This document shows, piece after piece, positions 1 to 12,570 of a DNA stretch of 12,570 bases. The DNA comes from Promethearchaeota archaeon (GTDB lineage Archaea > Asgardarchaeota > Lokiarchaeia > Sigynarchaeales > SOKP01). The translations under genes and the position numbers were made by a program. The stretch lies in NCBI GenBank assembly GCA_016839425.1, contig JAEOUI010000127.1, positions 1 to 12,570 of the forward strand. Direction: 5' to 3'. The notes under the pieces were generated by a model that saw only the letters and a program-made list of their open reading frames with translations, ran no database searches and had not been told where the DNA came from. The stretch's first letter is position 1; each line of letters begins with the position of its first letter.

Positions 1-2
1 CG

Positions 3-425
3 ATCGTGGGTGCTTTAATGCTTGCAAATTTTCAATACAAATTTTCCTGGAAGAAAATCGGAATTATAGGCGCCCTAAGTTCCTTTAATAAAGGTATTTC
101 TGGAGGTGGTTTCGGACCATTAGTAACCGCTGGACAGGTGGTCTCGGGAAGAGACACAAAAAACGCTATTGCCACAGCTTTGGCTTGCGAATTTCCCATA
201 TGTATTGCTGGTTTGATTACATACATTGCATTCAAACCAATTACAGAAACTTCCTTATTATTATGTCTTTTATTAACGATTGGTTCGATTCCAGCTTCGA
301 TAATCGGAGCTTTTTCTGTTACCAGAATGAAAGACGAGAGAAATTTCAAGATTTTAACGGGAATTTTTGTTGTATTTTTAGGAATATTCGTATTGCTAAA
401 AACTTACAAAATTATTTTTCCCTAA
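3..425 (+). CDS. TauE/SafE-family membrane exporter, C-terminal part (5' end outside window)
   Basis: This is the C-terminal half of a TauE/SafE-type integral membrane protein, a family proposed to move sulfite, sulfonates or other organic anions across the membrane. The reading frame is open back to the window edge and the first possible start (GTG at 6) lies inside a hydrophobic helix, so the gene begins upstream. About 140 residues are visible against about 250-300 for the family. The glycine-rich signature GISGGGFGPLVTAGQ, followed by SGRDTKNAIATALACEFP, is the hallmark that starts the second half-repeat of the family. Three further hydrophobic segments follow and the protein ends in a short hydrophobic tail. 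A T-run directly follows the stop codon. The substrate cannot be read from the sequence. The family call is based on remembered motif resemblance. Confidence 0.8.
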   Translation: MVGALMLANFQYKFSWKKIGIIGALSSFNKGISGGGFGPLVTAGQVVSGRDTKNAIATALACEFPICIAGLITYIAFKPITETSLLLCLLLTIGSIPASIIGAFSVTRMKDERNFKILTGIFVVFLGIFVLLKTYKIIFP

Positions 426-440
426 TTTTTTTAAATTTTA
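426..440 (+). terminator. T-rich stop after the exporter gene
   Basis: A run of seven T residues starts at the base after the stop codon (426-432) and is followed by AAATTTTA. Archaeal RNA polymerase commonly stops on such T-tracts without a hairpin, and none is visible here. The assignment rests on position and composition only. Confidence 0.4.
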
Positions 441-527
441 GACGTATTAATATTTTGTTTCGTACCCTCAATATTCATCCGTATTGGTACAAGTTATGAT
501 ATTACTTCATATACTTTTTCATAGGGA

Positions 528-854
528 TTGAACAGTTATGATGGCGAAATTTATTATGATACAATGAGTTTTTTATATCAAACGGTACCAGTTTTAATTG
601 TTCTCTCTGGAACTGTAGTACTCGTGGTGGCAACAATCTTGTTCATTACTAAGGAGTCGAATTCCATCTCCTACATGTGCGTGATTGGAGGTTGCTTGAT
701 GGTTATTGGAGAAATACTTTGGCTCACCTTACTTTTGGTCTATGATGCAATAGAATCCTCAGGAGTTTATATATCAATAGGATTCTCTAGTATTATAATT
801 CCTCTGATTTGTTTCATACCCATTCTAATCGGAATTTACTTGTTTAAACAATAG
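528..854 (+). CDS. small four-helix membrane protein, function unknown
   Basis: I do not recognise this 108-residue protein. It contains four clearly hydrophobic segments, at about residues 18-40, 47-63, 64-72 extending through the TLLLVYDA stretch, and 78-106, with few charged residues between them. It is therefore expected to sit in the membrane with short loops. The start is uncertain. TTG at 528 has a weak AGGGA just upstream, whereas the in-frame ATG at 564 gives a 96-residue product starting directly before the first helix but has no visible ribosome site. No cysteine or histidine motif suggests a cofactor. It stands between the exporter and the convergent hydrogenase operon, and nothing shows that it works with either. 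Confidence 0.55.
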   Translation: MNSYDGEIYYDTMSFLYQTVPVLIVLSGTVVLVVATILFITKESNSISYMCVIGGCLMVIGEILWLTLLLVYDAIESSGVYISIGFSSIIIPLICFIPILIGIYLFKQ

Positions 855-868
855 TACAAATTCCACTC

Positions 869-880
869 TTTTTTTATTTT
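869..880 (+). terminator. T-run between convergent genes
   Basis: CTTTTTTTATTTT lies 15 bases after the stop of the small membrane protein and just before the 3' end of the convergent minus-strand operon. It fits an archaeal T-tract terminator for the plus-strand gene. No stable hairpin precedes it. Confidence 0.45.
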
Positions 881-894
881 AAACAGGATTAGTG

Positions 895-1929
895 TTATTT
901 AGATTTAATTCTTTGCTGAAATATAGCCTTACGATCTTTATCCAACAAGCAAAAAATATATTCTTGATTCACGGTCGATTTAGGAACGCTAAATACCAGT
1001 TCTTCTTCGGGTAACCACTCTTCGATCATATCGAAAAGGATGGTTTGTTCGAAAAATTCCGTTAGGGATGTAATTTTCACTTGAAGGGCGTGGTAATGAT
1101 CTTTGGTGTTATTTTTCGTTATGATTTCTAATTCTTGCGTTTCTTCAACGAGAACTTTATCCGTGATGCTAAAATTGTTTTTTTGAATAGGGTTGGTTAT
1201 TGATTTTAATTTATTTTCGAAGAGTTTCATGCTCGAAAATCCCACCTTATCGCCTTTTTTGGCTATATGTTCGATAGGCACCCCCCGCAAGGAAAGATAC
1301 GAAATAGCTTTTTGGATTTTTAAAGTAGAAGTATCCGTTTTTTGGATTACTGATTTGAAATATTGAGAACACGAGTTTTTAATGAGAGCACCCATTCTTT
1401 TCTTTATCCTTTGTCCTTCCTCGAGCAATTGCTTTGTTGGAGGTGTTTTTATTAAATCTAAACTAGCAATATTTGCTTCGATCAAGCGAGTGAAGTGGTG
1501 TTTAAAATGCTTGATCATTTTTTCCGTCGTGCCTTTTACCAACGCAGCCCCAAAGATATCCATTTCTATAGGCAAAGCGAGAATGAGTACGATCGTCTCG
1601 TTGGGATTTTCCTCCGATCCTGCTCTCCTTTTCTCTCTATGCGATGGGACTAAAAACTTCTTTGCAAAATACATTTTCATACCGTATTCTAAATCAACGC
1701 GATCAAGCGCAGTTTTATCGCTTATATCTAAAAACCATATCGAATGAACCTTGAGAATGCGCATTGTCTCTTCGTCAGTATATCTTTCCTCGGGACTTTT
1801 TAGAAGCAAAATTTGACCTAACGACTCGTCGAAATAAAATAAAAACACTTCACATAATTGTTCTGGTTCGATCTGTTCGTAATTAAAATCTACTTCCTTG
1901 TTTTTGAATTTGAATTCTCTTCCGCTCAT
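895..1929 (-). CDS. unrecognised 344-residue soluble protein, last gene of the hydrogenase operon
   Basis: I do not recognise a named family. The protein is soluble: there is no signal peptide, no membrane helix and no CxxC metal site. Residues about 25-150 look like an alternating alpha/beta domain: a strand pair CEVFLFYFDESLGQILLLK, then VHSIWFLDIS, a hydrophobic strand ETIVLILALPIEMDIFG and an amphipathic helix ending near 'FTRLIEANIA'. This layout resembles longin- or profilin-like regulatory folds, which is a weak structural guess. A helical linker (about 165-195) and a C-terminal strand-rich domain (about 240-344) follow. The ATG lies 23 bases after the hydrogenase large-subunit stop on the same strand, with only a poor ribosome site, so it is probably co-transcribed and perhaps translationally coupled. 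A role in hydrogenase assembly, sensing or trafficking is possible but unproven. Confidence 0.6.
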   Translation of the reverse strand: MSGREFKFKNKEVDFNYEQIEPEQLCEVFLFYFDESLGQILLLKSPEERYTDEETMRILKVHSIWFLDISDKTALDRVDLEYGMKMYFAKKFLVPSHREKRRAGSEENPNETIVLILALPIEMDIFGAALVKGTTEKMIKHFKHHFTRLIEANIASLDLIKTPPTKQLLEEGQRIKKRMGALIKNSCSQYFKSVIQKTDTSTLKIQKAISYLSLRGVPIEHIAKKGDKVGFSSMKLFENKLKSITNPIQKNNFSITDKVLVEETQELEIITKNNTKDHYHALQVKITSLTEFFEQTILFDMIEEWLPEEELVFSVPKSTVNQEYIFCLLDKDRKAIFQQRIKSK

Positions 1930-1952
1930 TTATATAGGTTCCAAAGTTGTTT

Positions 1953-3254
1953 TTAATGCGTGGCACACGAGATGCAAGGGTCAAAAGCTCTAATCATGGG
2001 TTGAACTTCTTTTTTAACTTGCGAAATATCCTTTGTTTCATAAAGGCTTCGAGCGTATTTTGTGATCATTTTATTGACGATAGGTAAGTTAAACTCTGTT
2101 GCAATGAAGAATTTAGCGTCCTCAACGATATTCCTTTCGTTGATCTTATAATAATGCAAGAGGGACCCTCTTGGAGCCTCCACGGCAGAGATTGATTCGG
2201 TATTTTTGATGGAACGAATGTCAGGTAAGGGTAAGCTCGATTCCAACCTTAATCCTTCAAGATGTTGATTAATTTCCTTCATTTCAGAATACATCTCAAT
2301 TAAACGCAAGTAATTCGAATATAAAAGGTTTTTGTTCCATTCTTTTCCAAAAAGGTCAAGATAGCTATTACATTCTTCAATGCCGTAATTTTCTATTATA
2401 TTCTTTCGGGCTATTGGCCCTACTAGAATAGTTGCTTTCGGTTCGTTGAGAAAGTTTATTCCCCTTAAACCTGTATCTTTTTCAAAATATTGGAGAAAGT
2501 TCTCAGTAGAAAATTCGTCGTATTTCGAACGACTCTCCTTTAATGTCATCGTACCCTCATATCTATTGTAGATCTTGTTTTTACTTAAACTTAGATATTT
2601 AACTTTAGGGATAGAGAAAGATGCTGGGGGATCTATATTCGAAAATTGTTTTACGAAAAAATCAATAATTTCTTTAAGACCATTAATCCCTTTTGATAGA
2701 AGATTTTGAAAATTCCTTGAAAATTGAGATGTTGGTTTAAATATTATTCCTCCTGGTAAGATATTAACCAAATGCACGGATTTACTTCCTAGCATCTTAT
2801 TTATATCGTCTCCTATCTTGATAAGTTCGAATACATTTTTAGTAAGATTGTTGTCAAACGCTAATAATTGAGTTAAATCTAAATTTTTATTTGATATATT
2901 AAATAATTTCAATAGGTCAGGAAATGAGTGGAAGAAAAAATGAGTTGTGTGGGACTTAAGCATTTCTGCCGTCATTAATATTCGTCGAAGTACTATTGCT
3001 TGTTGAGTAGGCTTGATATTATACATATTTTCGATAACCTTACAACTCACGATTGATTGAGAGGCGTGACAAAGCCCACATATTCTCGAGACAATACGAG
3101 GTACATCCAAAATTTTCTTTCCTTTCAGCATTGCCTCGAATCCTCTATATATTGGAAGTTTAAATTCTGCTTGGATTAGTTGATCTTCCCTTGTATAAAC
3201 GCTTAATTCCCCATGTCCTTCAATTCTCGTACATAATTCTACAGTTTTAATCAC
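1953..3254 (-). CDS. mvhA: F420-non-reducing [NiFe] hydrogenase large subunit (MvhA/VhuA-like)
   Basis: This is the catalytic subunit of a cytoplasmic [NiFe] hydrogenase that would exchange electrons between H2 and the neighbouring small subunit and HdrA. The N-terminal RIEGHGEL motif (Glu12) is present. The first metal-binding motif is RICGLCHASQ (Cys59, Cys62), the family block SHTTHFFFHSFPDLL is at about 101-115, EAPRGSLLHYY is at 359-369, and the second metal-binding motif DPCISCATH (Cys427, Cys430, His433) is the very end of the protein. All four Ni-Fe cysteine ligands are therefore present. Two features are odd: the His usually found four residues after Cys62 is Gln66, and no cleavable C-terminal tail follows His433. 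The length of 433 is slightly short for the family. The GTG start at 3254 has GGAGG seven bases upstream inside the end of the small-subunit gene, and the two genes are separated by one base. Confidence 0.9.
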   Translation of the reverse strand: MIKTVELCTRIEGHGELSVYTREDQLIQAEFKLPIYRGFEAMLKGKKILDVPRIVSRICGLCHASQSIVSCKVIENMYNIKPTQQAIVLRRILMTAEMLKSHTTHFFFHSFPDLLKLFNISNKNLDLTQLLAFDNNLTKNVFELIKIGDDINKMLGSKSVHLVNILPGGIIFKPTSQFSRNFQNLLSKGINGLKEIIDFFVKQFSNIDPPASFSIPKVKYLSLSKNKIYNRYEGTMTLKESRSKYDEFSTENFLQYFEKDTGLRGINFLNEPKATILVGPIARKNIIENYGIEECNSYLDLFGKEWNKNLLYSNYLRLIEMYSEMKEINQHLEGLRLESSLPLPDIRSIKNTESISAVEAPRGSLLHYYKINERNIVEDAKFFIATEFNLPIVNKMITKYARSLYETKDISQVKKEVQPMIRAFDPCISCATH

Positions 3255-3255
3255 A

Positions 3256-4017
3256 TCAAGACCTCCATAAGTTTGGTTTAGAAAATCGATAGTATAACCC
3301 CTTATACTTCTTTAAATCTTTAGAAACATTTGCAAGACTTAAGAAATTAATTATATTTGATGTAATGTCTTTAGAAACAGGCCCCATACAGCCTTCGCAC
3401 GGTATTCCGGCCTTTATGCATTCGTAATCGCAACCCTGTCTCGTGATTGGTCCGAGGCATAATACACCTTTTTTCAAAAAACAGGTTTCTCCTTCTTCAT
3501 ACAATTCCTTGTTATCGGGTATTAATTTATTGATCGTGGTTTCCTTACTCAGAATAAAATCTGCCTTATTTGGACAATCATCACATAAATTTTTTTTAGG
3601 AAGTTCTATTTCTTTTCTTTCAAGAAGTTTAATCAAGCAATTTCCAAATAATTTATTAGGTGGAGGACAACCAGGGATTATTCCATTTATCTCTATTACA
3701 TCTTGTATGGGAATAGCGAACTTTTCCTTAGATAAACTTAAAATACCTCCATAAGCTGCACATGTTCCTAAAGCAATTACCTTTTTTGAGCTTTTTCGAA
3801 TTTTTTTTAAAAATTCTATCTGTAAATCGGTTGAGACGCATCCTTCAATTAAAGCAATGTCATAATCTTGGTTCTCAATAAATTCATTATCTTCAAGGAA
3901 AGGAAAATAACATAATTCCGTCTTTTCCAAAAATTGAGAGAAGAAATCGAGCGAAATCAAAGACGAAAGGCATCCACTACAAGAGGTTAAAGAAACAATG
4001 AGAAATTTAAGCTTCAT
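3256..4017 (-). CDS. mvhG: F420-non-reducing hydrogenase small subunit, FeS protein (MvhG/VhuG-like)
   Basis: This small subunit relays electrons between the [NiFe] site and the HdrA/MvhD protein. Counting from ATG 4017, the proximal [4Fe-4S] ligands are CSGC (Cys13, Cys16), GTCAAYGG (Cys86) and PGCPPP (Cys117). A further cysteine-rich tail holds CDDC (145, 148), Cys187, then Cys196, Cys200, Cys207 and Cys210 in LGPITRQGCDYECIKAGIPC and EGCMGP, enough for two more clusters as in MvhG. There is no Tat signal, which fits a cytoplasmic group 3 enzyme. I prefer ATG 4017 over GTG 4023: a GGTGG site lies nine bases before the ATG but only three before the GTG. The gene overlaps the end of hdrA by 11 bases and its 3' end carries the ribosome site of the large subunit, so translation is tightly coupled. 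Confidence 0.9.
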   Translation of the reverse strand: MKLKFLIVSLTSCSGCLSSLISLDFFSQFLEKTELCYFPFLEDNEFIENQDYDIALIEGCVSTDLQIEFLKKIRKSSKKVIALGTCAAYGGILSLSKEKFAIPIQDVIEINGIIPGCPPPNKLFGNCLIKLLERKEIELPKKNLCDDCPNKADFILSKETTINKLIPDNKELYEEGETCFLKKGVLCLGPITRQGCDYECIKAGIPCEGCMGPVSKDITSNIINFLSLANVSKDLKKYKGLYYRFSKPNLWRS

Positions 4018-6556
4018 ATTCACTTTCCACCTTTAATATGTTATAAAATTTATTACATATGTCTGAAAATTTGTTTCCTTCAACGGCGTTTAAATTTTTC
4101 AATATTATCTTGCGACCTAATCTTGGACCTAAGACTTTTTTTAGAAGGTGTATCTTGTTTTGCACTTTTTGAGTTCCGTCAATATATCTGCAAGCGTCTT
4201 TTCTACATCCAACAATCAACACGCCATCAAATCCATATTCTAAAGCTTTTAATATGAAATTCGCGTCGACTCTACCCGTGCAAGGGACTCGAACAATGAA
4301 TACACTTGGACGATAATTCAATTTTTTTAAGCCTGCATCATCTGCAGCCGCGTAGCCACATGAACGACAGCAAAAAGCAAGAATTTTTGGCTTTTTATTG
4401 AATTTAGACAAGACTTCGATAGTTTTTAGGATTTTATCCGTTGTATCTATATTCATATCAATTGCGTTGGTTGGGCAAACACTAACACAAGTCCCACATC
4501 CCTTGCATTTGAATTTGTCAATTGAAATCTTATCGTTTTCGATTAATAGTGCGTTATAAGGACATGCTTGAACACAAAGCGTGCATAAACCACAGGCATT
4601 CTCGTTTATCTCAATTCCCGTGAATTCCGCTAGGATGTAATCGTTTGAAAAAAGAGAAATTATGTTGAGAGCTACTTTATGTGCAGAATTTACTGTCTTA
4701 TAGTAATTGAGCGGTCCAAGAATAGCACCAGCACCATAAATTCCAGAAGCCAGCGTTTCTTCACTCATAAATCCCGTGTCGTTTAAAGTAAAATCCATTG
4801 TTTTTCTCAACAGTTTTAAGTCCTTATTTGGAATTAAATTTTGATTTAAGACTATTAAATCGCTCTCGTATTCAATAGAATCTGAAATAATAATGTTTTG
4901 ATCGTTTTTTCTAGCAATTTTTATATCTTCAACATAATGAAATCTCGGGTCAGTTGATTTAAATACGGGTGAGTCGTCTTTTATCAAAGATTTCGTCTTG
5001 CAAAATACATTTACAACACATTTAGGATTTTTTACTTTAATACAACCAATATATTTTTGAACGACATTATTTATGAGTTCTTGTTGGTCTCGCGTAGATC
5101 CCATATTTTGAATAATAGAAATAGCATTTGGGGGTTTCAAATCAGTCAATTTAAGGATTTTCCCCTCAGTGATTCCATCTGAAGAAAGCATTCGTTCGAA
5201 TTCTGCAGAAGATATGATATCAGTTTTAGGATCATAGCTATATTCCTCCAAATCATTGAATATATCCGCACCAATAGCTACTACTTTTGCGCCAACCTTG
5301 ATCTGAATATTTTCACTTTTTTCATTAAGATTTATTGCTTTATTCATACACGCTCGCTCACAAATCCTGCAATTTAAGCAATTATTAAGATCTTCTTCCT
5401 CAATAAGCGGAGCATATGGATAGCAATTTTGAAATGGAAAATATATGACCTTTCTATTCGTTAAATTAAACTCGTATTGATTTGGTTCCCCTACACCACA
5501 CACATCAATACATTGCTTGCATCCCGTACACTTTTTTTCGTCGACAAACCGAGGTTTTTTAACTAAATTTAATGTAAAATTTCCTACTTCTCCAGATACT
5601 CCTTCTATTTCCGTGTTAGTAAGAATTTGAATGTTTTTTTCTTTTACAATTTCTCCTACAAGTTCCGAAATGAAGCAAATCGAGCAATCTCCTATTCCGT
5701 GAACTTTATGCCACCTAGCAACTTTTCCTCCCAAGGTTGGACTTTTTTCAATAAGATACACCTTGATGCCTGATCTTGCTAAATCTAACGCAACAGTCAT
5801 ACCTGCAATTCCCCCACCTAATATTGCACAAGATTTTTCAATTTCTACACGTTTAATTTTTACTTCTTTTTGGAGCAATATTCTCTCTATTGCTGCTTCA
5901 ATTAATAATTGCGCTTTTTGCAATACAATGAAAGGATCTTCTTTACGTTCATTTGATGTGTGATGCACCCAGCAACATTGCTCTCGAATATTAGCAATTT
6001 CAATATTTGCGTGATCCACGATTCCATCAAAAATTCGTTCAAAAATATGTTGATGCGTTTTAGGAGAACAAGCGGCGATTACAATCTTATTAATAAAATT
6101 TTCTTTTACCCAGTTTGTTATTCTTTCTAAATTCTTTTCTTGACATAAGTTTTCAAATATTTTAACAGAAACAACACTTCTCAACTTAGTAATGTGCTTT
6201 TCTAACGATATAATATCTATAACATTGGAAATTTCTGTATTACAATTACAAATAATAACTCCAACGCGATTAATTTCGCTTCCTTTAGAATTAAGATAAT
6301 CAACTTCCTCGCCAGATAAAATTCGCTTGTTAATGTTTAAAATTTTTAATATTCGCTTACCATCTTCCGTAAGAAAATAATATTTTTTGTTTTTATTAAT
6401 CAGGGAACCAAGCTTTCTCAAATGAAAGTTTAATTGACCTGTTTGATCTAATCCCAACTTATCCATTAAATCAGTATATAAAACATATCCTTCTTTTTCA
6501 AGAAGTAATAAAATTTTTCTCCTGAATTCGTGAGATAAAACGGAATAGATATCCAA
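4007..6556 (-). CDS. hdrA: fusion: winged-helix DNA-binding domain + HdrA + MvhD-like domain
   Basis: An 849-residue flavin/FeS electron-transfer protein of the HdrA family with additions at both ends. Residues 1-75 form an ArsR-like winged helix (LSHEFRRKILLLL, TDLMDKLGLDQTGQLNFHLRKL, wing ending YYFLTEDGKRIL). Residues 97-200 are the HdrA N-terminal Cys domain (ICNCN, Cys138, Cys163, Cys194, Cys195). The FAD site GGGIAG is at 247-252, with DCSICF at 290-295. [4Fe-4S] motifs start at Cys343 and Cys393. Two more ferredoxin motifs start at Cys655 and Cys684, and an MvhD-like delta domain (FCCRSC, VPCTGR, VGCRKDACR) occupies 728-825. The TTG start at 6556 has AAGGA six bases upstream and an in-frame TGA just before it. 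No ATG, GTG or TTG separates the winged helix from HdrA, so the fusion must be translated as one. HdrB and HdrC are absent here. Confidence 0.9.
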   Translation of the reverse strand: MDIYSVLSHEFRRKILLLLEKEGYVLYTDLMDKLGLDQTGQLNFHLRKLGSLINKNKKYYFLTEDGKRILKILNINKRILSGEEVDYLNSKGSEINRVGVIICNCNTEISNVIDIISLEKHITKLRSVVSVKIFENLCQEKNLERITNWVKENFINKIVIAACSPKTHQHIFERIFDGIVDHANIEIANIREQCCWVHHTSNERKEDPFIVLQKAQLLIEAAIERILLQKEVKIKRVEIEKSCAILGGGIAGMTVALDLARSGIKVYLIEKSPTLGGKVARWHKVHGIGDCSICFISELVGEIVKEKNIQILTNTEIEGVSGEVGNFTLNLVKKPRFVDEKKCTGCKQCIDVCGVGEPNQYEFNLTNRKVIYFPFQNCYPYAPLIEEEDLNNCLNCRICERACMNKAINLNEKSENIQIKVGAKVVAIGADIFNDLEEYSYDPKTDIISSAEFERMLSSDGITEGKILKLTDLKPPNAISIIQNMGSTRDQQELINNVVQKYIGCIKVKNPKCVVNVFCKTKSLIKDDSPVFKSTDPRFHYVEDIKIARKNDQNIIISDSIEYESDLIVLNQNLIPNKDLKLLRKTMDFTLNDTGFMSEETLASGIYGAGAILGPLNYYKTVNSAHKVALNIISLFSNDYILAEFTGIEINENACGLCTLCVQACPYNALLIENDKISIDKFKCKGCGTCVSVCPTNAIDMNIDTTDKILKTIEVLSKFNKKPKILAFCCRSCGYAAADDAGLKKLNYRPSVFIVRVPCTGRVDANFILKALEYGFDGVLIVGCRKDACRYIDGTQKVQNKIHLLKKVLGPRLGRKIILKNLNAVEGNKFSDICNKFYNILKVESEYEA

Positions 6557-6608
6557 TATTCATCCTTAAAATTATGATTTTTATTTGATTATTAAAAATT
6601 AAAGATTC

Positions 6609-6622
6609 AAATTTATAAATTT
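6609..6622 (-). promoter_or_regulatory. TATA-like promoter element and 14-bp perfect palindrome upstream of the hdrA operon
   Basis: AAATTTATAAATTT is a perfect 14-bp palindrome whose centre reads as an archaeal TATA box on either strand. It lies about 53 bases before the TTG start of the hydrogenase operon, so transcription would begin near 6585-6590 and leave a leader of roughly 30 bases containing the AAGGA site. Because the first gene begins with a winged-helix domain, a regulator binding this palindrome would block TBP. That autoregulation is a guess from position. Confidence 0.45.
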
Positions 6623-6852
6623 CTAAAAGATCATGTTTATATGCAACGAATCCTATTCATTAATATTGATATATGCTGAATAATATTTAAGTGTTCCGCG
6701 TTGTTCCGAATGATCTTCGTTCTATAAATATAGGATGTGAAGTTCATTCTGTATGGAATAGAATGGTGAAAGACATGATTATACAAAATAAAGTTACTAA
6801 AATTGTTATTTTGAAAATTTTTCTTGTCAAAGCCATTCAAAATTTTGTTATC

Positions 6853-6867
6853 AAATTTTTTAAATTT
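6853..6867 (+). promoter_or_regulatory. candidate promoter of the C1-dehydrogenase operon
   Basis: AAATTTTTTAAATTT resembles an archaeal BRE/TATA element. It would place the start of transcription near 6888-6895 and give a leader of about 45 bases that begins at the inverted repeat 6896-6914 and includes GGAGG at 6920. A stronger-looking TATAAATA at 6723-6730 is an alternative that would give a leader of about 185 bases. Confidence 0.35.
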
Positions 6868-6895
6868 CGAGGAAAGCAATTGTCACTTAGGAACA

Positions 6896-6914
6896 CGATT
6901 CTTAATTAGAATCG
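6896..6914. promoter_or_regulatory. inverted repeat with 7-bp arms just upstream of the 204-residue gene
   Basis: CGATTCT and AGAATCG are perfect arms around the 5-base loop TAATT. The element ends five bases before the GGAGG ribosome site. It could be an operator bound by a dimeric regulator or a small hairpin at the 5' end of the transcript. The hairpin would be weak, being mostly A-T pairs, so an operator is the better guess. Confidence 0.4.
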
Positions 6915-6936
6915 AATATGGAGGTGTTTAATAAAA

Positions 6937-7551
6937 ATGGAAGTACTGGAATTAAAACCAATACAAAAAAAACACATTTGTGCATATGTTGCCAAAAAGA
7001 ATAAAGATGATTTTCATTATTTTGATATCGCGAAACTCAAACAATTTCTTGAAAAGAAAAAAATTGATTTTGTAACGATTGATTTTAACATTGATCTAAA
7101 AGAATTCAAGGAGTCCGAGCTTGCTAAGGCTTTAAATGATTTAAGTATAATGTACTTTCAAGTCGATATTCCGGAATATGCAATGGGATATCTCTACGAA
7201 GAAATCGTTGAGAAGGAAGAATTATTGAACGAATTATACGAAGAATTCGAATCAATGAGCGATAAAGAATCGTTGAAAGGAGAGAGCCTTAAAAATTGGA
7301 TTGATGTGTTAAGGGACGAGATTCAAGATAAGGAAAATTACATCACGCTGAAATTACGACCACAATGGATCGTGAAAAAAATGCTTGATGCGGTAAAAAC
7401 CGTTAATTCCAATGAGGTCCAATTTCTACATCTAGTTCAAGAAGATATCTGCGAAGATATATGCACAGAAGTAACCGAACAACTTAGAGAATTAAATGTT
7501 AAAGTGGTTCAATACACGAAAAAACACAATATAATAAATATTGAATTTTAA
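6937..7551 (+). CDS. unrecognised 204-residue protein, first gene of the C1-dehydrogenase operon
   Basis: I do not recognise this family. It is soluble, acidic and rich in Glu and Lys, with no membrane segment. It begins MEVLELKPIQKKH, a motif shared with the next two genes. Residues 30-80 look alpha/beta (FLEKKKIDFVTIDF, then MYFQVDI). Residues 84-137 are two long helices starting GYLYEEIVEKEELLNEL and containing NWIDVLRDEIQDKE; this module recurs in the 84-residue protein at 11914 and in the interrupted paralogue downstream. The C-terminal part (145-204) is another small alpha/beta unit with Cys172 and Cys176. The ATG follows GGAGG by 12 bases, the same spacing as in its paralogue. Its position before an MtdA-type dehydrogenase suggests a partner or regulator of that enzyme. 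The C-terminal layout faintly recalls TraB-like domains, but not enough to name it. Confidence 0.75.
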   Translation: MEVLELKPIQKKHICAYVAKKNKDDFHYFDIAKLKQFLEKKKIDFVTIDFNIDLKEFKESELAKALNDLSIMYFQVDIPEYAMGYLYEEIVEKEELLNELYEEFESMSDKESLKGESLKNWIDVLRDEIQDKENYITLKLRPQWIVKKMLDAVKTVNSNEVQFLHLVQEDICEDICTEVTEQLRELNVKVVQYTKKHNIINIEF

Positions 7552-7555
7552 CATG

Positions 7556-7562
7556 AAGGAGG
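7556..7562 (+). promoter_or_regulatory. ribosome binding site that fixes the start of the interrupted paralogue
   Basis: AAGGAGG touches the ATG at 7563 with no spacing, which makes that codon unlikely as a start. The ATG at 7575 lies 12 bases downstream of GGAGG, matching the spacing of the preceding gene. It also makes the N-terminus (MPKVLELKPLKKKH) line up with MEVLELKPIQKKH. Confidence 0.6.
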
Positions 7563-7574
7563 ATGATAAAAAAA

Positions 7575-7898
7575 ATGCCAAAAGTATTAGAATTAAAACC
7601 CTTGAAGAAAAAGCACTTGAAGTTGATAATGGTCGAAAGCGAGTTTCCTGTTGATTGGTGGTTTGAAGCGCCTAAAAAGGTAAAAGAAGACCTCGTGTGG
7701 AACTTGCATCTGATATCTAAAGAATATCTCGATGTGATTGATAATTTAGTTGATAAGTATAAGCCACATTTTGGAGCAGAGGAGAAACCCACGAATTGGG
7801 ACGAATCGCAAAATCAAGTGGATCCACTTGAGGAGCTTTTCAAATTGAAAGGATTACCATTTTCACGAGTGGATATCGACGATAATGCGCGCGATTAA
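7575..7898 (+). CDS. paralogue of the 204-residue protein, 5' part ending at an in-frame TAA
   Basis: This open frame of 107 residues is the N-terminal part of a second copy of the preceding protein family. It starts MPKVLELKPLKKKHL and includes an acidic, tryptophan-containing stretch (DWWFEAP, PTNWDESQ). It ends FSRVDIDDNARD followed by TAA at 7896. In the paralogue the matching stretch reads MYFQVDIPEYAMGYL, so the stop falls exactly on the conserved Tyr (TAT in both relatives). The same frame continues open for another 137 codons with clear family sequence. Either the protein is really made as this short form, or the gene is broken, or the base call is wrong, or the stop is read through. 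The gene begins 23 bases after the 204-residue gene and belongs to the same operon. Confidence 0.7.
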   Translation: MPKVLELKPLKKKHLKLIMVESEFPVDWWFEAPKKVKEDLVWNLHLISKEYLDVIDNLVDKYKPHFGAEEKPTNWDESQNQVDPLEELFKLKGLPFSRVDIDDNARD

Positions 7899-8312
7899 TT
7901 ATCTGCAGCTTTAGACGAGCATAGAAAAGCGGTCATCAGGTTGGAAAAACGCATTCGAGAGGAAATAACAAAGCAAGGAAAAGTTCCAGAACAGGACGAA
8001 TGGTTCCAAAAATTAGTAATTTGGAAGGAATATTTGGAACGCGACTATGCCACCCAAGAAGACGAAGTGAGATATAATGTGAGAGAAGCATGGATGATGA
8101 TGAATATAATCAACATGGCAAAAGATGTTGATGGCACGAAGCTTAAAGGCTTGTTCATCTGCGATTTAAGACACTTTAACGGAATTGAAAAACTCTGCAC
8201 TGACTTGGGTATTGACATCGAAAAAATTAAAATTAAAAGAACGATAAAAACCGAAGAATTAGAAGAGTTAGAAAAGGATGTGGAAGTTACTATAAAGGAG
8301 AAAACCACTTAA
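7899..8312 (+). pseudogene. paralogue of the 204-residue protein, 3' part after the in-frame TAA
   Basis: This is the continuation, in the same frame, of the gene stopped at 7896. It starts LSAALDEHRKAVIRLEKRI, which matches the two-helix module of the 204-residue protein (LYEEIVEKEELLNEL) and of the 84-residue protein (LWAEIRKQEEF), including the tryptophan-containing second helix (DEWFQKLVIWKEYLERD). A C-terminal alpha/beta unit then follows (NIINMAKDVDG, GLFICDLRHFNGIEKLC), aligned with the C-terminus of the first gene. The only start options are poor: a TTG at 7941 has AGG directly adjacent and no proper ribosome site. The frame is nevertheless intact over 414 bases with normal codon use, so decay, if real, is very recent. 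It ends 19 bases before the dehydrogenase ATG. Confidence 0.65.
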
Positions 8313-8331
8313 AATAAAGGAGGAATAAAAC

Positions 8332-9330
8332 ATGCAAGATCAAGATTTAGAAAAAGATGTACAAACAATTTTAGGACGAAAATCAATAATCGAACTCACA
8401 CCGATCAAGATTAAGAAGAAAGATTTGTCAGATAAGATATGTTATTTTTTCGATACTGATGAAAACGCTTCTCCATTTGACATTAATATGGCTTACGATG
8501 CAGGATTTGATATTGTCATTCCAATTAGTAAGATGACAGCTGATCAAGTTCCTAAACTCGTTCAAGACGCCACTTTCTCTCGAAAACCCAAGGCACCGAC
8601 TACATTTTTCATTGGAGGGTCGGATGTGAAAGAAGGAGAATTGATAGCCAAGGCAGTAGTCAAGAACTTGGTGCCTCCTTTTGAATGTCCCGTAATTATT
8701 GATCCTAGAGGCTCTCACACGACAGCATCGGCCGTAGTTGCAATGACCATTGATGTTGCAAACAAATTACACGGAATGAAAGAATTAAAGGGAAGAAAAG
8801 TAGTAATTTTCGGTGCTGGTCCTGTTGCGAGAATTGCTGCGATATTAGGAGCAAAAATAGGATGTAATGTGTTTTTGGTTGAGACGTGGGAAAAATCAGA
8901 CGAGGAATTTGTAAGAAAATTAGCTGAAGAGCTAACTGCAGAAGCAGGAGAAGGCGCAACAAAGATTCAAGGTGTCTTTGGGCCTACCTTGGAAGATAGA
9001 ATAGTTTTATCGAAAGACGCAGAGATTTTATGGTCATTAGCTGCTGCGGGTGTTGAGATATTGTCTGAAGAGGCGATAATGAAGTTAGAAGGTAAAAAAA
9101 TAGTCGTGGATATCAACTTGGTTCCTCCCTATGGAATTGAGGGAATTAAACCAAAACACTACAACGAAGAAATCTATCCAAATATTTTTGGAATAGGTGC
9201 CTTAGCGCTTGGTAGGCTTAAATCAAATTCAGAAGCCGAAATCCTAAAAGAAGCAGCAAATACGAATGGTTTAAAGGTATTTAACTATAATTACGCTTTA
9301 GATGTTGCTAAAAAATTATTAAATAAATAA
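8332..9330 (+). CDS. mtdB: methylene-tetrahydropterin dehydrogenase, MtdA/MtdB type
   Basis: This cytoplasmic dehydrogenase would interconvert methylene- and methenyl-tetrahydromethanopterin (or -tetrahydrofolate) with a nicotinamide coenzyme. After a 32-residue N-terminal extension the family pattern begins: CYFFDTDENASPFDINMAYD (37-56), DATFSR (79-84), FFIGGSD, PPFECPVIIDPRGSHTTASA (115-134), the nucleotide-binding loop VVIFGAGPVA (157-166), VVDINLVPPYGIEGI (258-272) and FGIGALALGRLK. Glu184 at the end of the second Rossmann strand, where the NADP-type enzyme MtdA has an SR/GR-like pair, hints at NAD rather than NADP. The extension contains SIIELTPIKIKKKDL, which resembles the N-termini of the two preceding proteins. 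The 332-residue length is about 40 more than bacterial MtdA. AAAGGAGG lies eight bases before the ATG. The choice between mtdA and mtdB cannot be settled by reading. Confidence 0.85.
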   Translation: MQDQDLEKDVQTILGRKSIIELTPIKIKKKDLSDKICYFFDTDENASPFDINMAYDAGFDIVIPISKMTADQVPKLVQDATFSRKPKAPTTFFIGGSDVKEGELIAKAVVKNLVPPFECPVIIDPRGSHTTASAVVAMTIDVANKLHGMKELKGRKVVIFGAGPVARIAAILGAKIGCNVFLVETWEKSDEEFVRKLAEELTAEAGEGATKIQGVFGPTLEDRIVLSKDAEILWSLAAAGVEILSEEAIMKLEGKKIVVDINLVPPYGIEGIKPKHYNEEIYPNIFGIGALALGRLKSNSEAEILKEAANTNGLKVFNYNYALDVAKKLLNK

Positions 9331-9339
9331 ATTTTTTTT

Positions 9340-9368
9340 AGTCGATAACTTCGACTTTATTTTTTTAT
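9340..9368 (+). terminator. hairpin plus T-run after the dehydrogenase gene
   Basis: AGTCGA (9340-9345) and TCGACT (9351-9356) form a perfect 6-bp stem with loop TAACT, followed directly by TTATTTTTTTATT. A second T-run precedes the stem. This looks like the end of the C1-dehydrogenase transcript, isolating it from cdc48, which has its own ribosome site 30 bases on. Confidence 0.6.
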
Positions 9369-9396
9369 TCTAAATATTTGAGAAGGAGGTTTTTAT

Positions 9397-11682
9397 ATGG
9401 TAGTTTTTCCCAAGGAATCTTTAAATAAAAAAGTTAGAGTTAAAGACGCATTCAAGCAGGACGCTGGAAGGGGCATTATTCGCATGGATCCAGATTTAAT
9501 GCGGCAATTGGATTTAAAGCTGGAGGACATTATCGAAATAAGTCAGCCTTTATATAATAAAAAAACCGCAGCAGTTTTAATGTCGGGAAAACCAGAAGAC
9601 CAAGGGACTAATATTATTCGAATCGATCCATCACTCAGGAGAAACATTGATGTTTCAATAGATGACTATGTAGAAATACGAAAAATCAACGCATATCCTG
9701 CCGATAGCTTGACATTTACGGGATTAAACGAATCCTATTTCATTCGCGACATACAACAATTAGCCCATAGATTGGAAAATAGAGTCATCACTAAGGGAGA
9801 TAGCTTGAGCTTTTACGCTATGGGTCGTAGAATTGACCTTGTTGTCCTCAATTACGAACCTAAAGTTGAAGCAGTAAAAATTCATTTAAGTACGAAAATC
9901 AAGCTAACTGAAAAAAAAATAAAAGAATTAATCAAACAAGAACCCTCACGAATCAAGAGGGTTCAATACGAGGCTATTAGCGAATTAGAAGAAGAAATGG
10001 AAAAATTACGCCAACGTGTGACTTACGAAGATATTGGTGGTCTCGAAGACATCATTCAAAGGGTTAGAGAAATTATTGAATTGCCCATAAGACACCCAGA
10101 GTTATTTAAAAAGATAGGCATTGACCCTCCAAAAGGAGTTTTACTTCACGGACCTCCTGGAACGGGAAAGACTCTTTTAGCAAGAGCCGTTGCTTTTGAG
10201 ACTGATGCGAATTTCGTGTCCATAAGCGGTCCAGAAATCATGAGCAAGTTTTTTGGACAAAGTGAGGAAAACTTGCGCAAGGTTTTCGAAGAAGCAAAAC
10301 AAAAATCACCAACAATTATATTTCTCGACGAACTTGACTCGATTGCACCACAAAGAGACGAAAATAAGGGACAAGTCGAATCTCGAGTCGTAGCACAATT
10401 ATTATCGCTGATGGATGGCTTGGAAGGACGTGGAGAAATTATCATAATTGGAGCAACGAATAAGATAAATAACATTGATATCGCCTTGCGAAGACCAGGG
10501 CGTTTTGATCGGGAAATCGAAATTGGAGCACCTACTATTGACGGAAGACAAGAAATTTTGTTAATACACACTCGTGGAATGCCTTTAGCAAGCGATTTAG
10601 ATTTAAGACTCATTGCTGAAAAAACTCACGGTTTCGTAGGGGCAGACATTAAGGCGCTTTGTAAGGAGGCAGCAATGCTTGCAATTAGAGAAATTTTACC
10701 GAATATCGACCTCGAAGAACCCATTCCAGAAAGCGTTTTAAACAACCTTGAGATCAAATCAAATCACTTTCTGGAAGCCTTAAACGGTATAGAGCCTTCC
10801 GCGTTACGAGAGGTGCTTATAACTAAGCCTACAGAAACCTGGGAAGATATTGGAGGCTTGGAAGATGCAAAACAGCAATTAAGGGAGACAATAGAATGGC
10901 CTTTAAAATATCCTCGTTTTTATAATTACATGAAATCACAACCACCAAGCGGTATTCTTTTATACGGACTCCCTGGAACGGGAAAAACGCTTCTTGCAAA
11001 AGCATTAGCTCACGAAGGTGAGATAAATTTTATTTCTGTCAAGGGTCCTGAATTTTTATCAAAATGGGTGGGAGAAAGTGCTAAAGCCGTGAGAGAAACT
11101 TTTAAGAAGGCTCGTTCTGCCGCACCTTGTATTATCTTTTTTGACGAAATCGATTCAATTGCTTCGAGAAGATCAGAATCATCAAACTCCCGAGTTGTTG
11201 AGCAGGTTGTAGCCCAATTATTAACGGAAATGGATGGTTTAGAAGAACTTACTAGTGTAATACTACTTGCTGCAACAAATAGGCCCGATTTACTAGATCC
11301 TGCTCTTCTAAGATCAGGGCGTTTTGGCAGACATATTGAAGTTCCGCTCCCTAATAAATTATCTCGAACAAAAATCTTTAAGATCCATTTAAAAGGAAGA
11401 CCTCTAGCAGAGGATGTGGATGTAGAAGCTTTGGCAAATATGTTAGATGGATATACGGGAGCAGATATTAAAGGCGTATGCGAAGAAGCAACATTATTGG
11501 CCGTGCGTCGTGACATATTAGAAAATACGATTAATGATGCAAATGAAAAGACTTTCTCAAAAGTCGCAATAAATATAAGCGATTTCAATCAAGCAATTAA
11601 TAAAATCATTGGTTCAGCAGAACGAGCCAAAAAATCGTATCAAGAAAAGCTGAAAGAACCTTTAGAAACAATATATGGATAA
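9397..11682 (+). CDS. cdc48: Cdc48/VAT-type two-domain AAA+ ATPase
   Basis: A hexameric unfoldase that uses ATP to extract and unfold proteins, normally feeding them to the archaeal proteasome. Residues 1-190 form the Cdc48 N-domain: a double-psi barrel (LNKKVRVKDAFKQDAGRGII, IIRIDPSLRRNI) followed by a beta-clam. The D1 ATPase has Walker A GPPGTGKT (252-259), Walker B IIFLDELDS (307-315), a sensor GATN and the arginine-finger segment RRPGRFDRE. D2 has Walker A GLPGTGKT (524-531, Leu for the usual Pro), Walker B IIFFDEIDS (579-587), AATNRPDLLDPALL and RSGRFGR. Length 761 is typical. The last three residues, Ile-Tyr-Gly, fit the HbYX proteasome-docking motif. AAGGAGG lies seven bases before the ATG. 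The gene follows a terminator, so it is probably transcribed on its own. Confidence 0.95.
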   Translation: MVVFPKESLNKKVRVKDAFKQDAGRGIIRMDPDLMRQLDLKLEDIIEISQPLYNKKTAAVLMSGKPEDQGTNIIRIDPSLRRNIDVSIDDYVEIRKINAYPADSLTFTGLNESYFIRDIQQLAHRLENRVITKGDSLSFYAMGRRIDLVVLNYEPKVEAVKIHLSTKIKLTEKKIKELIKQEPSRIKRVQYEAISELEEEMEKLRQRVTYEDIGGLEDIIQRVREIIELPIRHPELFKKIGIDPPKGVLLHGPPGTGKTLLARAVAFETDANFVSISGPEIMSKFFGQSEENLRKVFEEAKQKSPTIIFLDELDSIAPQRDENKGQVESRVVAQLLSLMDGLEGRGEIIIIGATNKINNIDIALRRPGRFDREIEIGAPTIDGRQEILLIHTRGMPLASDLDLRLIAEKTHGFVGADIKALCKEAAMLAIREILPNIDLEEPIPESVLNNLEIKSNHFLEALNGIEPSALREVLITKPTETWEDIGGLEDAKQQLRETIEWPLKYPRFYNYMKSQPPSGILLYGLPGTGKTLLAKALAHEGEINFISVKGPEFLSKWVGESAKAVRETFKKARSAAPCIIFFDEIDSIASRRSESSNSRVVEQVVAQLLTEMDGLEELTSVILLAATNRPDLLDPALLRSGRFGRHIEVPLPNKLSRTKIFKIHLKGRPLAEDVDVEALANMLDGYTGADIKGVCEEATLLAVRRDILENTINDANEKTFSKVAINISDFNQAINKIIGSAERAKKSYQEKLKEPLETIYG

Positions 11683-11692
11683 TTCCTTATAC

Positions 11693-11713
11693 TTTTTTTT
11701 TTACTTATTTTTA
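11693..11713 (+). terminator. T-run after cdc48
   Basis: Ten consecutive T residues (11693-11702) begin 11 bases after the cdc48 stop, followed by ACTTATTTTT. No hairpin precedes the run, which fits T-tract termination by archaeal RNA polymerase. Confidence 0.5.
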
Positions 11714-11803
11714 GTATTGAATGAAATCCAATTCTTCAATGATTATTTTTGTTATCAAGTAGTAAAAAAATATTTTTCATAAGAAGGAAGAAGAAAAATA
11801 AAA

Positions 11804-11818
11804 TTGTCAAATTGACAA
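11804..11818. promoter_or_regulatory. operator-like inverted repeat TTGTCA-AAT-TGACAA
   Basis: Perfect 6-bp arms around three bases, lying about 95 bases before the 84-residue gene and about 20 bases before a TATA-like TTTAAAT (about 11840). It is too short for a stable RNA hairpin and looks more like a protein-binding site. No binding protein can be named. Confidence 0.3.
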
Positions 11819-11913
11819 ATATTTTTCTTATCAAATTCTTTAAATCCTACAGTTTCAATTATTTAATTAGAATAAACTAAATAAAAATAATTTAAAATCA
11901 AGGTGATTCTAAA

Positions 11914-12168
11914 ATGGAAATGATGTCAAAAATGACCGTGAATGATATTGTCCAAGTAAGGGATAAAGTTAAAGAAAATGGATTTCTTTCCGAACTTGCT
12001 AAAGGATATTTATGGGCTGAAATACGCAAGCAAGAAGAATTCATTGAGGAATTAACCATTGCTCTTGAAAAAATCAAGGATAAAGATTCGTTCAAAGCAG
12101 ATTACTTGGAAACATGGATTGAGTCTCTAAAAATAGACCTTGCAAGAGATAAAAAGAAATTAAATTAA
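11914..12168 (+). CDS. 84-residue stand-alone helical-hairpin protein, paralogous to the C1-operon unknowns
   Basis: A small, charged, all-helical protein of no family I can name. From residue 31 it reads GYLWAEIRKQEEFIEEL, then KDKDSFKADYLETWIESL, and it aligns without gaps to residues 84-137 of the 204-residue protein at 6937 (GYLYEEIVEKEELLNEL, SDKESLKGESLKNWIDVL). I count about 20 identities in about 50 positions. It is therefore the two-helix module on its own, without the alpha/beta parts or the ELKP N-terminal motif. GGTGA lies seven bases before the ATG. It stands alone behind cdc48 with its own likely promoter. It could bind the same partner as the larger proteins, acting as a competitor or an adaptor; that is inference. 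Confidence 0.7.
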   Translation: MEMMSKMTVNDIVQVRDKVKENGFLSELAKGYLWAEIRKQEEFIEELTIALEKIKDKDSFKADYLETWIESLKIDLARDKKKLN

Positions 12169-12184
12169 TTTTTTCCACTTTTTT
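12169..12184 (+). terminator. T-runs after the 84-residue gene
   Basis: Two six-base T-runs (12169-12174 and 12179-12184) immediately follow the stop codon, in the gap between this gene and the convergent histidine kinase. They fit a T-tract terminator. Confidence 0.45.
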
Positions 12185-12241
12185 ATTATTGTGAATTAAT
12201 TAAGTAATATTGATATTAAAAAGTCTTATTAAACAACGATA

Positions 12242-12570
12242 TTAACGACATTCAGGAATTATTATATTCACATTTGTTCCTTTTGAGGAATCTCCTTCTA
12301 CATTATCTTCAATCCATATCTTTCCGTCATATGAATTGATGATTTTCTTTACCAAAGACATTCCAAATCCCATCCCTCGACTCCTCTTTGCTTCGCTTTT
12401 TCCGTTTGTAAAAATGATTTTTTTAATATTGTCACTAATACCCGTGCCATTATCAATAAATTCCAATCGAACGAACCAAGAATCCTTTCTTAAAACCCTA
12501 TGAATTCTCACATGAACTTTTACGATTGAATTGCTGGTATACTTTACTGCATTGGTTAGAATGTTGGTAA
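12242..12570 (-). CDS. histidine kinase, C-terminal ATPase domain (5' end outside window)
   Basis: The last 109 or so codons of a two-component sensor kinase; the frame is open to the window edge, so the sensor and phosphoacceptor parts lie outside. The N box reads NILTNAVKYTS (near 12560-12530), the G1 box is DNGTGIS, and the G2 region is GMGFGMSLVKKIINSYDGKI, followed by a last strand NVNIIIPECR. Together these form the HATPase_c fold that binds ATP and passes phosphate to the conserved His. The GTG at 12511 is internal, after the N box, and is not a start. The gene is convergent with the 84-residue gene and its partner regulator is not visible. Confidence 0.88.
   Translation of the reverse strand, partial: TNILTNAVKYTSNSIVKVHVRIHRVLRKDSWFVRLEFIDNGTGISDNIKKIIFTNGKSEAKRSRGMGFGMSLVKKIINSYDGKIWIEDNVEGDSSKGTNVNIIIPECR

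Follow-up and report, generated by a model that had tools for sequence, protein, structure and literature searches.

Can an electron-bifurcating enzyme regulate the transcription of its own operon? The question is raised by a gene on contig JAEOUI010000127.1 of a Promethearchaeota archaeon, positions 1–12,570 of which (12,570 nt) form the window studied here; all coordinates are window positions. The encoded protein consists of a DUF7347 winged helix, an HdrA core and an MvhD/FlpD domain and is further referred to as the fusion. Sequence comparisons suggest, with good probability, that it serves both as an HdrA–MvhD electron-transfer subunit and as a transcription regulator of its own operon and of operons with a methylene-tetrahydromethanopterin (H4MPT) dehydrogenase-like gene.

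The fusion protein and its conservation

The reading frame, the TTG start and the three-domain order had been proposed in an earlier note on this DNA, and the list of open reading frames (ORFs), Pfam and NCBIfam bear them out (Table 1). DUF7347 was matched by Pfam at residues 2–71 with 42.9 bits against a cut-off of 27.6, and with 48.1 bits when the N-terminal 100 aa were scanned alone, while HTH_20, HTH_24 and HTH_5 match the N-terminus below their cut-offs. With the Pfam cut-off passed and a winged-helix fold in the predicted model, the domain is classified as a DUF7347 winged helix. The HdrA models of NCBIfam match from residue 95–97 onward below their cut-offs (551 vs 1100 bits), and the core is therefore HdrA-like rather than the methanogen equivalog; it matches HdrA in sequence and fold along its length and has the flavin adenine dinucleotide (FAD) motif and the iron–sulfur (FeS) ligands. 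The MvhD/FlpD domain is recognized by PF02662 at residues 725–841 (114.4 bits, cut-off 22.3). In 78 aligned sequences the FeS-motif cysteines of HdrA are mostly invariant (C687 is kept in at least 90%), and judged from these cysteines and from the active-site cysteines of MvhA the enzyme parts look functional.

Among residues 1–110, in-frame start codons occur only at positions 1, 31, 34 and 46. Hence there is no start codon at the join between the winged helix and HdrA, as the earlier note had claimed. Its further claim of a stop directly preceding the TTG holds in part: an in-frame TGA is present two codons 5’ of the start, but a single ATA separates them. The start position is kept in related loci, with ATG in 20 of 27, TTG in four and another codon in three. 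The closest relative (locus L018) is 91% identical overall and identical over residues 1–96, and full-length relatives range from 91% to 38% identity; consequently, the fusion is not an assembly join.

Among the best 120 of 1122 homologues, 111 bear the DUF7347 tag (hand count) and the other nine are called about 30 residues short (816–821 aa); all of those listed with an organism name are Asgard. Likewise, all 120 region matches listed carry DUF7347 plus HdrA-type domains. A locus search gave 31 loci, 29 from Asgard archaea and two (L030, L031) being ferredoxin noise. Nine genomes searched whole contain one fusion apiece (62–91% identical), the next full-length HdrA being at most 36% identical and short partial matches reaching 44%. 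Matches to these paralogues mostly begin at about residue 83–97 of the fusion; those reaching back to residues 42–73 mostly cross stop codons, and the open frames of two paralogues (L041, L043) start just ahead of the HdrA part.

For a wider survey, 227 Asgard species genomes of the phylum were searched at E 1e-130 or better, and 63 had a match. The winged-helix fusion, matched from residue 1 or 2, is present in 55 (hand count; some matches are cut by contig ends), one of which (G175) carries two; another genome (G125) holds a contig-cut C-terminal piece, and seven hold solely a paralogue without the winged helix. The domain order that the earlier note proposed to search for in archaeal genomes is thus found, and the winged helix is still present in the most distant members (38–41% identity). 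In a tree with 21 Asgard HdrA paralogues, which is unrooted and carries a long-branch warning, all 24 sampled fusions lie on one side of a branch with 100/100 support. As far as can be judged from sequence, the fusion is real and conserved in Asgard archaea.

Many Asgard HdrA paralogues are broken by 2–4 in-frame TGA codons (e.g. G001:C1:2064314–2066239), which agrees with passages of PMC11291895 that report an HdrA with selenocysteine in Asgard archaea.

The structure was predicted with AlphaFold2 (AF2) for one chain of the fusion. The model contains a standard winged helix in which helix 39–52 is the recognition helix, and the predicted local distance difference test (pLDDT) score of linker residues 82–93 is below 50; residues 1–82 folded alone reach 91.4. 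The best fold matches of the domain are the DNA-binding winged helices YodB, QsrR, RosR, CadC and CzrA. The free recognition helix that the earlier note proposed to look for agrees with the standard winged helix and the low-pLDDT linker of the single chain; within the complex the helix may still be buried. Across the 78 aligned sequences, G40 and H45 are invariant and T39, L42, N43, F44, L46 and K48 are kept in at least 90%. The identity of the winged helix (residues 1–75) is equal to or higher than that of HdrA (97–705) in 1217 of 1540 sequence pairs, that is, the domain is conserved as well as HdrA, the recognition helix being its best-kept part.

A palindrome in the promoters of fusion operons

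We collected 380 bp before the fusion from 56 non-redundant loci including the window. The palindrome TGAYAA-N6-TTRTCA, a candidate operator new here, has 35 exact copies in 31 of these regions, whereas 200 rounds of dinucleotide shuffling gave 0.04 copies on average and one at most. Allowing one mismatch raises this to 68 sites in 41 loci, against a mean of 0.98 and at most four in the shuffles. The spacer is specific: length 6 accounts for 35 sites, lengths 5, 8 and 11 for one each, and the rest of the range 0–15 for none. This conserved palindrome supports the suggestion of the earlier note that the protein may control its own operon.

Sites were also scored with a weight matrix. As the matrix was derived from the regions of the fusion and its divergent partner, the score is partly circular for these two. 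Outside the training set, sites precede the FrhB-like gene in operons led by it, 1300–1508 bp upstream of the fusion, and separate dehydrogenase operons in L003, L006 and L022. Counted by gene cluster, sites scoring at least 14 in the 300 bp upstream were seen with 20 of 60 members of the dehydrogenase/companion cluster, with 18 of 44 in the HdrA cluster and with 7 of 14 FrhB-like genes, namely the seven heading a fusion operon, which have upstream sequence. Such sites are absent from the same interval of all 121 genes of clusters 2, 3 and 5–19; cluster 20 contributes one of its three genes, and the rarely seen genes contribute two of 87.

Six genomes contain 29 exact sites genome-wide (10 in all for the reversed-pattern control). 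Promoters of the fusion, of other Hdr/FrhB genes or of the dehydrogenase account for 13; eight of the other 16 were read in context, and most of these are inside ORFs. The two chromosome-level genomes have seven exact sites, five of them at promoters of the fusion or the methylene-H4MPT-dehydrogenase-like operon: among the four in G001, two are at the FrhB-fusion promoter and one is 163 bp upstream of a separate dehydrogenase operon, and the three in G002 comprise two at the fusion promoter and one within an ORF. G003 has one site at the fusion promoter plus a pair about 145–165 bp ahead of the match of another HdrA gene; G007 has two at the fusion promoter and one overlapping the called start of another FrhB-like gene; G006 and G009 have one each at the fusion promoter. 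In the most distant clade (L095–L097) sites lie 57–62 bp before the fusion, and weaker ones (14.0–15.8) about 100–150 bp before the downstream dehydrogenase-like ORF in L095 and L096 and inside its first called codons in L097. Across the 56 fusion-positive genomes, an extended 20-bp pattern occurs 51 times, compared with 11 for its control (hand count).

Further operator-like sites lie beyond the CDC48 gene: ahead of an 80–86-aa ORF in L020 (2313–2573) and L009 (2486–2728), and about 5.2 kb upstream in L001 and L016.

Location of the sites relative to promoters

Proximal sites (score at least 10) number 39 in 38 loci and are situated 57–129 bp before the first gene. For 22 of them the best TATA-like 8-mer (at least 7 of 8 matches) begins nine bases before the 22-bp site, as in TTTATATA, one base, TTTGACAA. 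In archaea such a position falls between the TATA box and the start site, where a repressor classically binds. With the site placed immediately behind the TATA box, as in many relatives, binding should block transcription, and repression is the most likely mode of control.

The divergent gene is faced by 44 sites in 39 loci. By eye, the order in most of the rows printed is the site, then the half-site TTRTCAAA, then a TATA-like stretch. The same order is seen in the window, where the site at 6810–6831, within the 380-bp stretch that separates the fusion start from the divergent gene and 106 bp before the latter, is followed by the half-site (6848–6855), the TATA-like stretch (6859–6867) and the divergent ATG at 6937. 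No site was located in 6557–6640, where the earlier note had placed the binding target; the candidate operator is the one at 6810–6831. In L018 an exact site lies at −259 relative to the fusion.

Does the winged helix read the palindrome?

Three indirect tests agree in suggesting that it does, and we infer that this winged helix is the palindrome binder. In 15 fusion-negative genomes, none of the 21 loci around the dehydrogenase gene has a site that reaches score 14. The dehydrogenase-like gene itself was detected in 53 of the 56 genomes with the fusion and in 18 of the 171 without it (hand count, uncorrected for kinship). The presence of sites also follows residue 41 in the recognition helix: in the 450 bp ahead of the operon, 45 of 49 loci with Q or L at this residue have a site scoring at least 14, as do 0 of 7 with K, I or R (Fisher p 1.4e-6 if the rows were independent, which they are not). 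With the plain consensus and one mismatch, one of these seven loci (L088) has a site.

Several observations weigh against this interpretation. One fusion-negative genome (G107) has a best site of 12.6, above the proximal cut-off of 10, all others being at most 7.1. The A+T content of the fusion-negative loci is 0.47–0.76 and chance sites are rarer in the GC-richer ones; as it goes down to 0.47, some of these loci are poor controls, and the fair ones are L124–L126 (A+T 0.69–0.71) and G107. Few independent branches underlie the residue-41 contrast, and loci with Q or L41 were the training set of the matrix. The winged helix is retained in seven fused sequences, belonging to two groups, that have no site of score 14. 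Three loci with Q41 are true exceptions with scores below 14 (L012, 11.0; L019, 4.1; L072, 12.8); the fourth, L007, is a short contig starting inside the leading FrhB-like gene. A proximal, TATA-adjacent site is missing from the upstream regions of the window and L018, and the distal site of the window has one mismatch. Finally, at most 21 of the 29 sites found genome-wide were read in context, and in 171 fusion-negative genomes the extended palindrome is somewhat above its control (56 vs 35, hand count).

The palindrome could also be the true operator of a separate, unlinked transcription factor, with the HdrA winged helix serving another purpose or binding other DNA. We consider this unlikely. 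It would suit the sites before other Hdr/FrhB genes in G003 and G007, the other DUF7347 proteins encoded in the genomes, and the precedent of HdrR in Methanosarcina, described in parts of PMC11218639 as a stand-alone winged-helix regulator of hdrBCA with palindromic upstream sequences. Yet no other helix-turn-helix family was found among the neighbour genes scanned with Pfam, the dehydrogenase gene has no site of score 14 in the 15 fusion-negative genomes, and site presence tracks a recognition-helix residue of the fusion itself.

Still less probable is reuse of the winged helix for protein contacts, e.g. docking of HdrBC or ferredoxin, without DNA binding, which the earlier note had raised. 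Strong conservation of the entire domain would equally fit a fixed partner, and some fusion loci lack the palindrome; but the best-kept surface is that of the recognition helix and wing (T39, G40, N43, F44, H45, K48, K55, K58), the domain hangs on a low-pLDDT linker, and most loci have a matching palindrome in their own promoter. An artefact, i.e. a mis-called gene pair, frameshift or assembly join, has a negligible chance and is already refuted, in agreement with the earlier note, by the 55 of 227 Asgard genomes carrying the fusion from residue 1–2, by the domains of all 120 listed region matches and by full-length relatives down to 38% identity.

Operon and neighbouring genes

Table 1. Features of the window and the evidence for their assignment
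Feature	Position	Strand	Evidence or remark
344-aa protein after MvhA	895–1929	−	no Pfam match
MvhA/VhuA-like [NiFe] large subunit	1953–3254	−	PF00374, NF041785
MvhG/VhuG-like hydrogenase small subunit	3256–4023	−	PF01058, NF045875
Winged helix–HdrA–MvhD fusion	4007–6556	−	849 aa, TTG start; ORF listing, Pfam, NCBIfam
MvhD/FlpD domain, residues 725–841	4034–4384	−	PF02662; PDB MvhD 5odc_D, 8rvu_F
HdrA core, residues 97–705	4442–6268	−	NCBIfam NF040770/NF041891; PDB HdrA chains 8rvu, 5odc, 7bkb
Linker, residues 81–96	6269–6316	−	pLDDT under 50 at 82–93
Winged-helix domain, residues 1–80, DUF7347 (PF24038)	6317–6556	−	Pfam above cut-off; AF2; fold matches
Recognition helix, residues 39–52, TGQLNFHLRKLGSL	6401–6442	−	helix in predicted model; conservation
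Candidate operator TTTGAAAATTTTTCTTGTCAAA	6810–6831	.	one mismatch to TGAYAA-N6-TTRTCA
Extra half-site TTATCAAA (6848–6855), then TATA-like TTTAAATTT (6859–6867) of the divergent promoter	6848–6867	+	
204-aa companion, first gene of divergent operon	6937–7551	+	no Pfam family above cut-off
Methylene-H4MPT dehydrogenase-like gene (Mpt_N), divergent operon	8332–9330	+	PF09176, E 1.9e-24

Of 30 sources, 27 have the MvhG-like gene next after the fusion and three end before that point. Among sequences with a residue at the respective position, the active-site cysteines of MvhA are kept in 26 of 27 each for C59 and C62 and in all 26 each for C427 and C430. With these four residues and the small subunit, the enzyme is a [NiFe] hydrogenase of the Mvh/Vhu type, scoring below the NCBIfam cut-offs for the named subunits. 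HdrB and HdrC were not found among the scanned ORFs of the window; these partners may be encoded elsewhere. Relatives of the 344-aa protein occur in six other loci of the first locus set (cluster 7).

On the divergent side, relatives of the 204-aa companion gene have the operator upstream. In the window and its relatives the Mpt_N domain either forms a protein of its own (332 aa) or follows, in the same chain, a domain of about 240 aa without a Pfam family above cut-off, and Mpt_N genes are often paired with a companion of about 204–219 aa. The second divergent gene (7563–8312) has an in-frame TAA at 7896–7898; its reading frame is identical on both sides of the TAA and the relatives in L001 and L018 read through (241–245 aa), which may indicate decay or a sequence error.

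Discussion

HdrA forms a dimer in known complexes. The two winged helices of such a dimer could occupy both halves of TGAYAA-N6-TTRTCA. The regulated set would then comprise the own operon (fusion–MvhG–MvhA, sometimes led by FrhB) and the methylene-H4MPT-dehydrogenase-like operon, often divergent. At the fusion promoter, binding just after the TATA box would block transcription and result in autogenous repression; at the divergent promoter the site lies before the TATA box. The most likely signal, with about an even chance, is the redox state of the HdrA core or the docking of its partners; as in PutA, DNA would be released while the enzyme works.

A bolder proposal, to which we give slightly less than an even chance, is that the bifurcating hydrogenase–Hdr complex itself is a redox- or H2-sensing transcription factor over a small regulon made up of its own and the methylene-H4MPT-dehydrogenase-like operon together with some further Hdr operons. 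A change in the flavin/FeS state or undocking would make the fusion grip or release the operator, and H2 and C1 metabolism would be set by the state of the enzyme.

Several described systems are close. PutA, according to the sections of PMC5293562 at hand, is a flavoenzyme that represses its own regulon through an N-terminal DNA-binding domain and moves from DNA to the membrane depending on proline level and flavin redox state. The fusion shares with it an enzyme core joined to a domain of a DNA-binding family; the conserved palindrome in the promoter of the fusion is a candidate for a specific operator. The two differ in that PutA, as described there, has a ribbon-helix-helix domain and relocates to the membrane, whereas the fusion carries a winged helix on HdrA–MvhD in an archaeal hydrogenase operon; the PRODH domain is absent from the 25 best of 30 Pfam matches, the remaining five having E > 0.0035. 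HdrR of Methanosarcina barkeri is a winged-helix activator of the heterodisulfide reductase operon with palindromic upstream sequences (PMC11218639, in part). Compared by description only, HdrR is a separate activator protein, whereas here the domain is within HdrA and the site geometry suggests repression. By analogy, the fusion may combine the ideas of PutA and HdrR in one chain, on a new enzyme class.

With HdrA and MvhD of MvhADG–HdrABC and related complexes (5odc, 7bkb, 8rvu) the fusion has in common the domain order, the FAD motif and the FeS cysteines. Five PDB HdrA chains with long matches align from residue 94–97 only and none to the winged helix, hence the N-terminal residues, about 95 in number, are extra in the fusion. 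HdrABC complexes contain HdrB and HdrC, whereas neither was found in the operon of the window. YodB, QsrR and RosR (ArsR-MarR-like) share the fold of DUF7347, but the solved ones stand alone, while in the fusion the domain forms the front of an enzyme. Portions of PMC11237513 describe several HdrA copies for Thor- and Lokiarchaeota as well as HdrA–HdrA and HdrA–MvhD fusions; the terms "winged" and "DNA-binding" have zero occurrences in its text. No DNA-binding domain on HdrA was found described in the portions of the literature searched, which lies outside subscription journals and preprints.

A second winged-helix fusion occurs in all four Lokiarchaeal genomes searched (L145, L150, L151, G001:C1:1862185 and L148), as open frames of 664–712 aa with DUF7347 in front. 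In L145 and L151, the two scanned, DUF7347 is followed by a match to ATP-cone and anaerobic ribonucleotide reductase (NRDD). The DUF7347–NRDD protein is possibly another enzyme-regulator.

Flavin-based electron bifurcation via HdrA lies at the core of energy metabolism in anaerobic archaea, and ideas on Asgard life with partners centre on H2 exchange. The outcome of this analysis is one claim that can be tested on a defined 18-bp site and a short list of targets. If it is true, a self-regulating bifurcating enzyme would link redox state directly to transcription.

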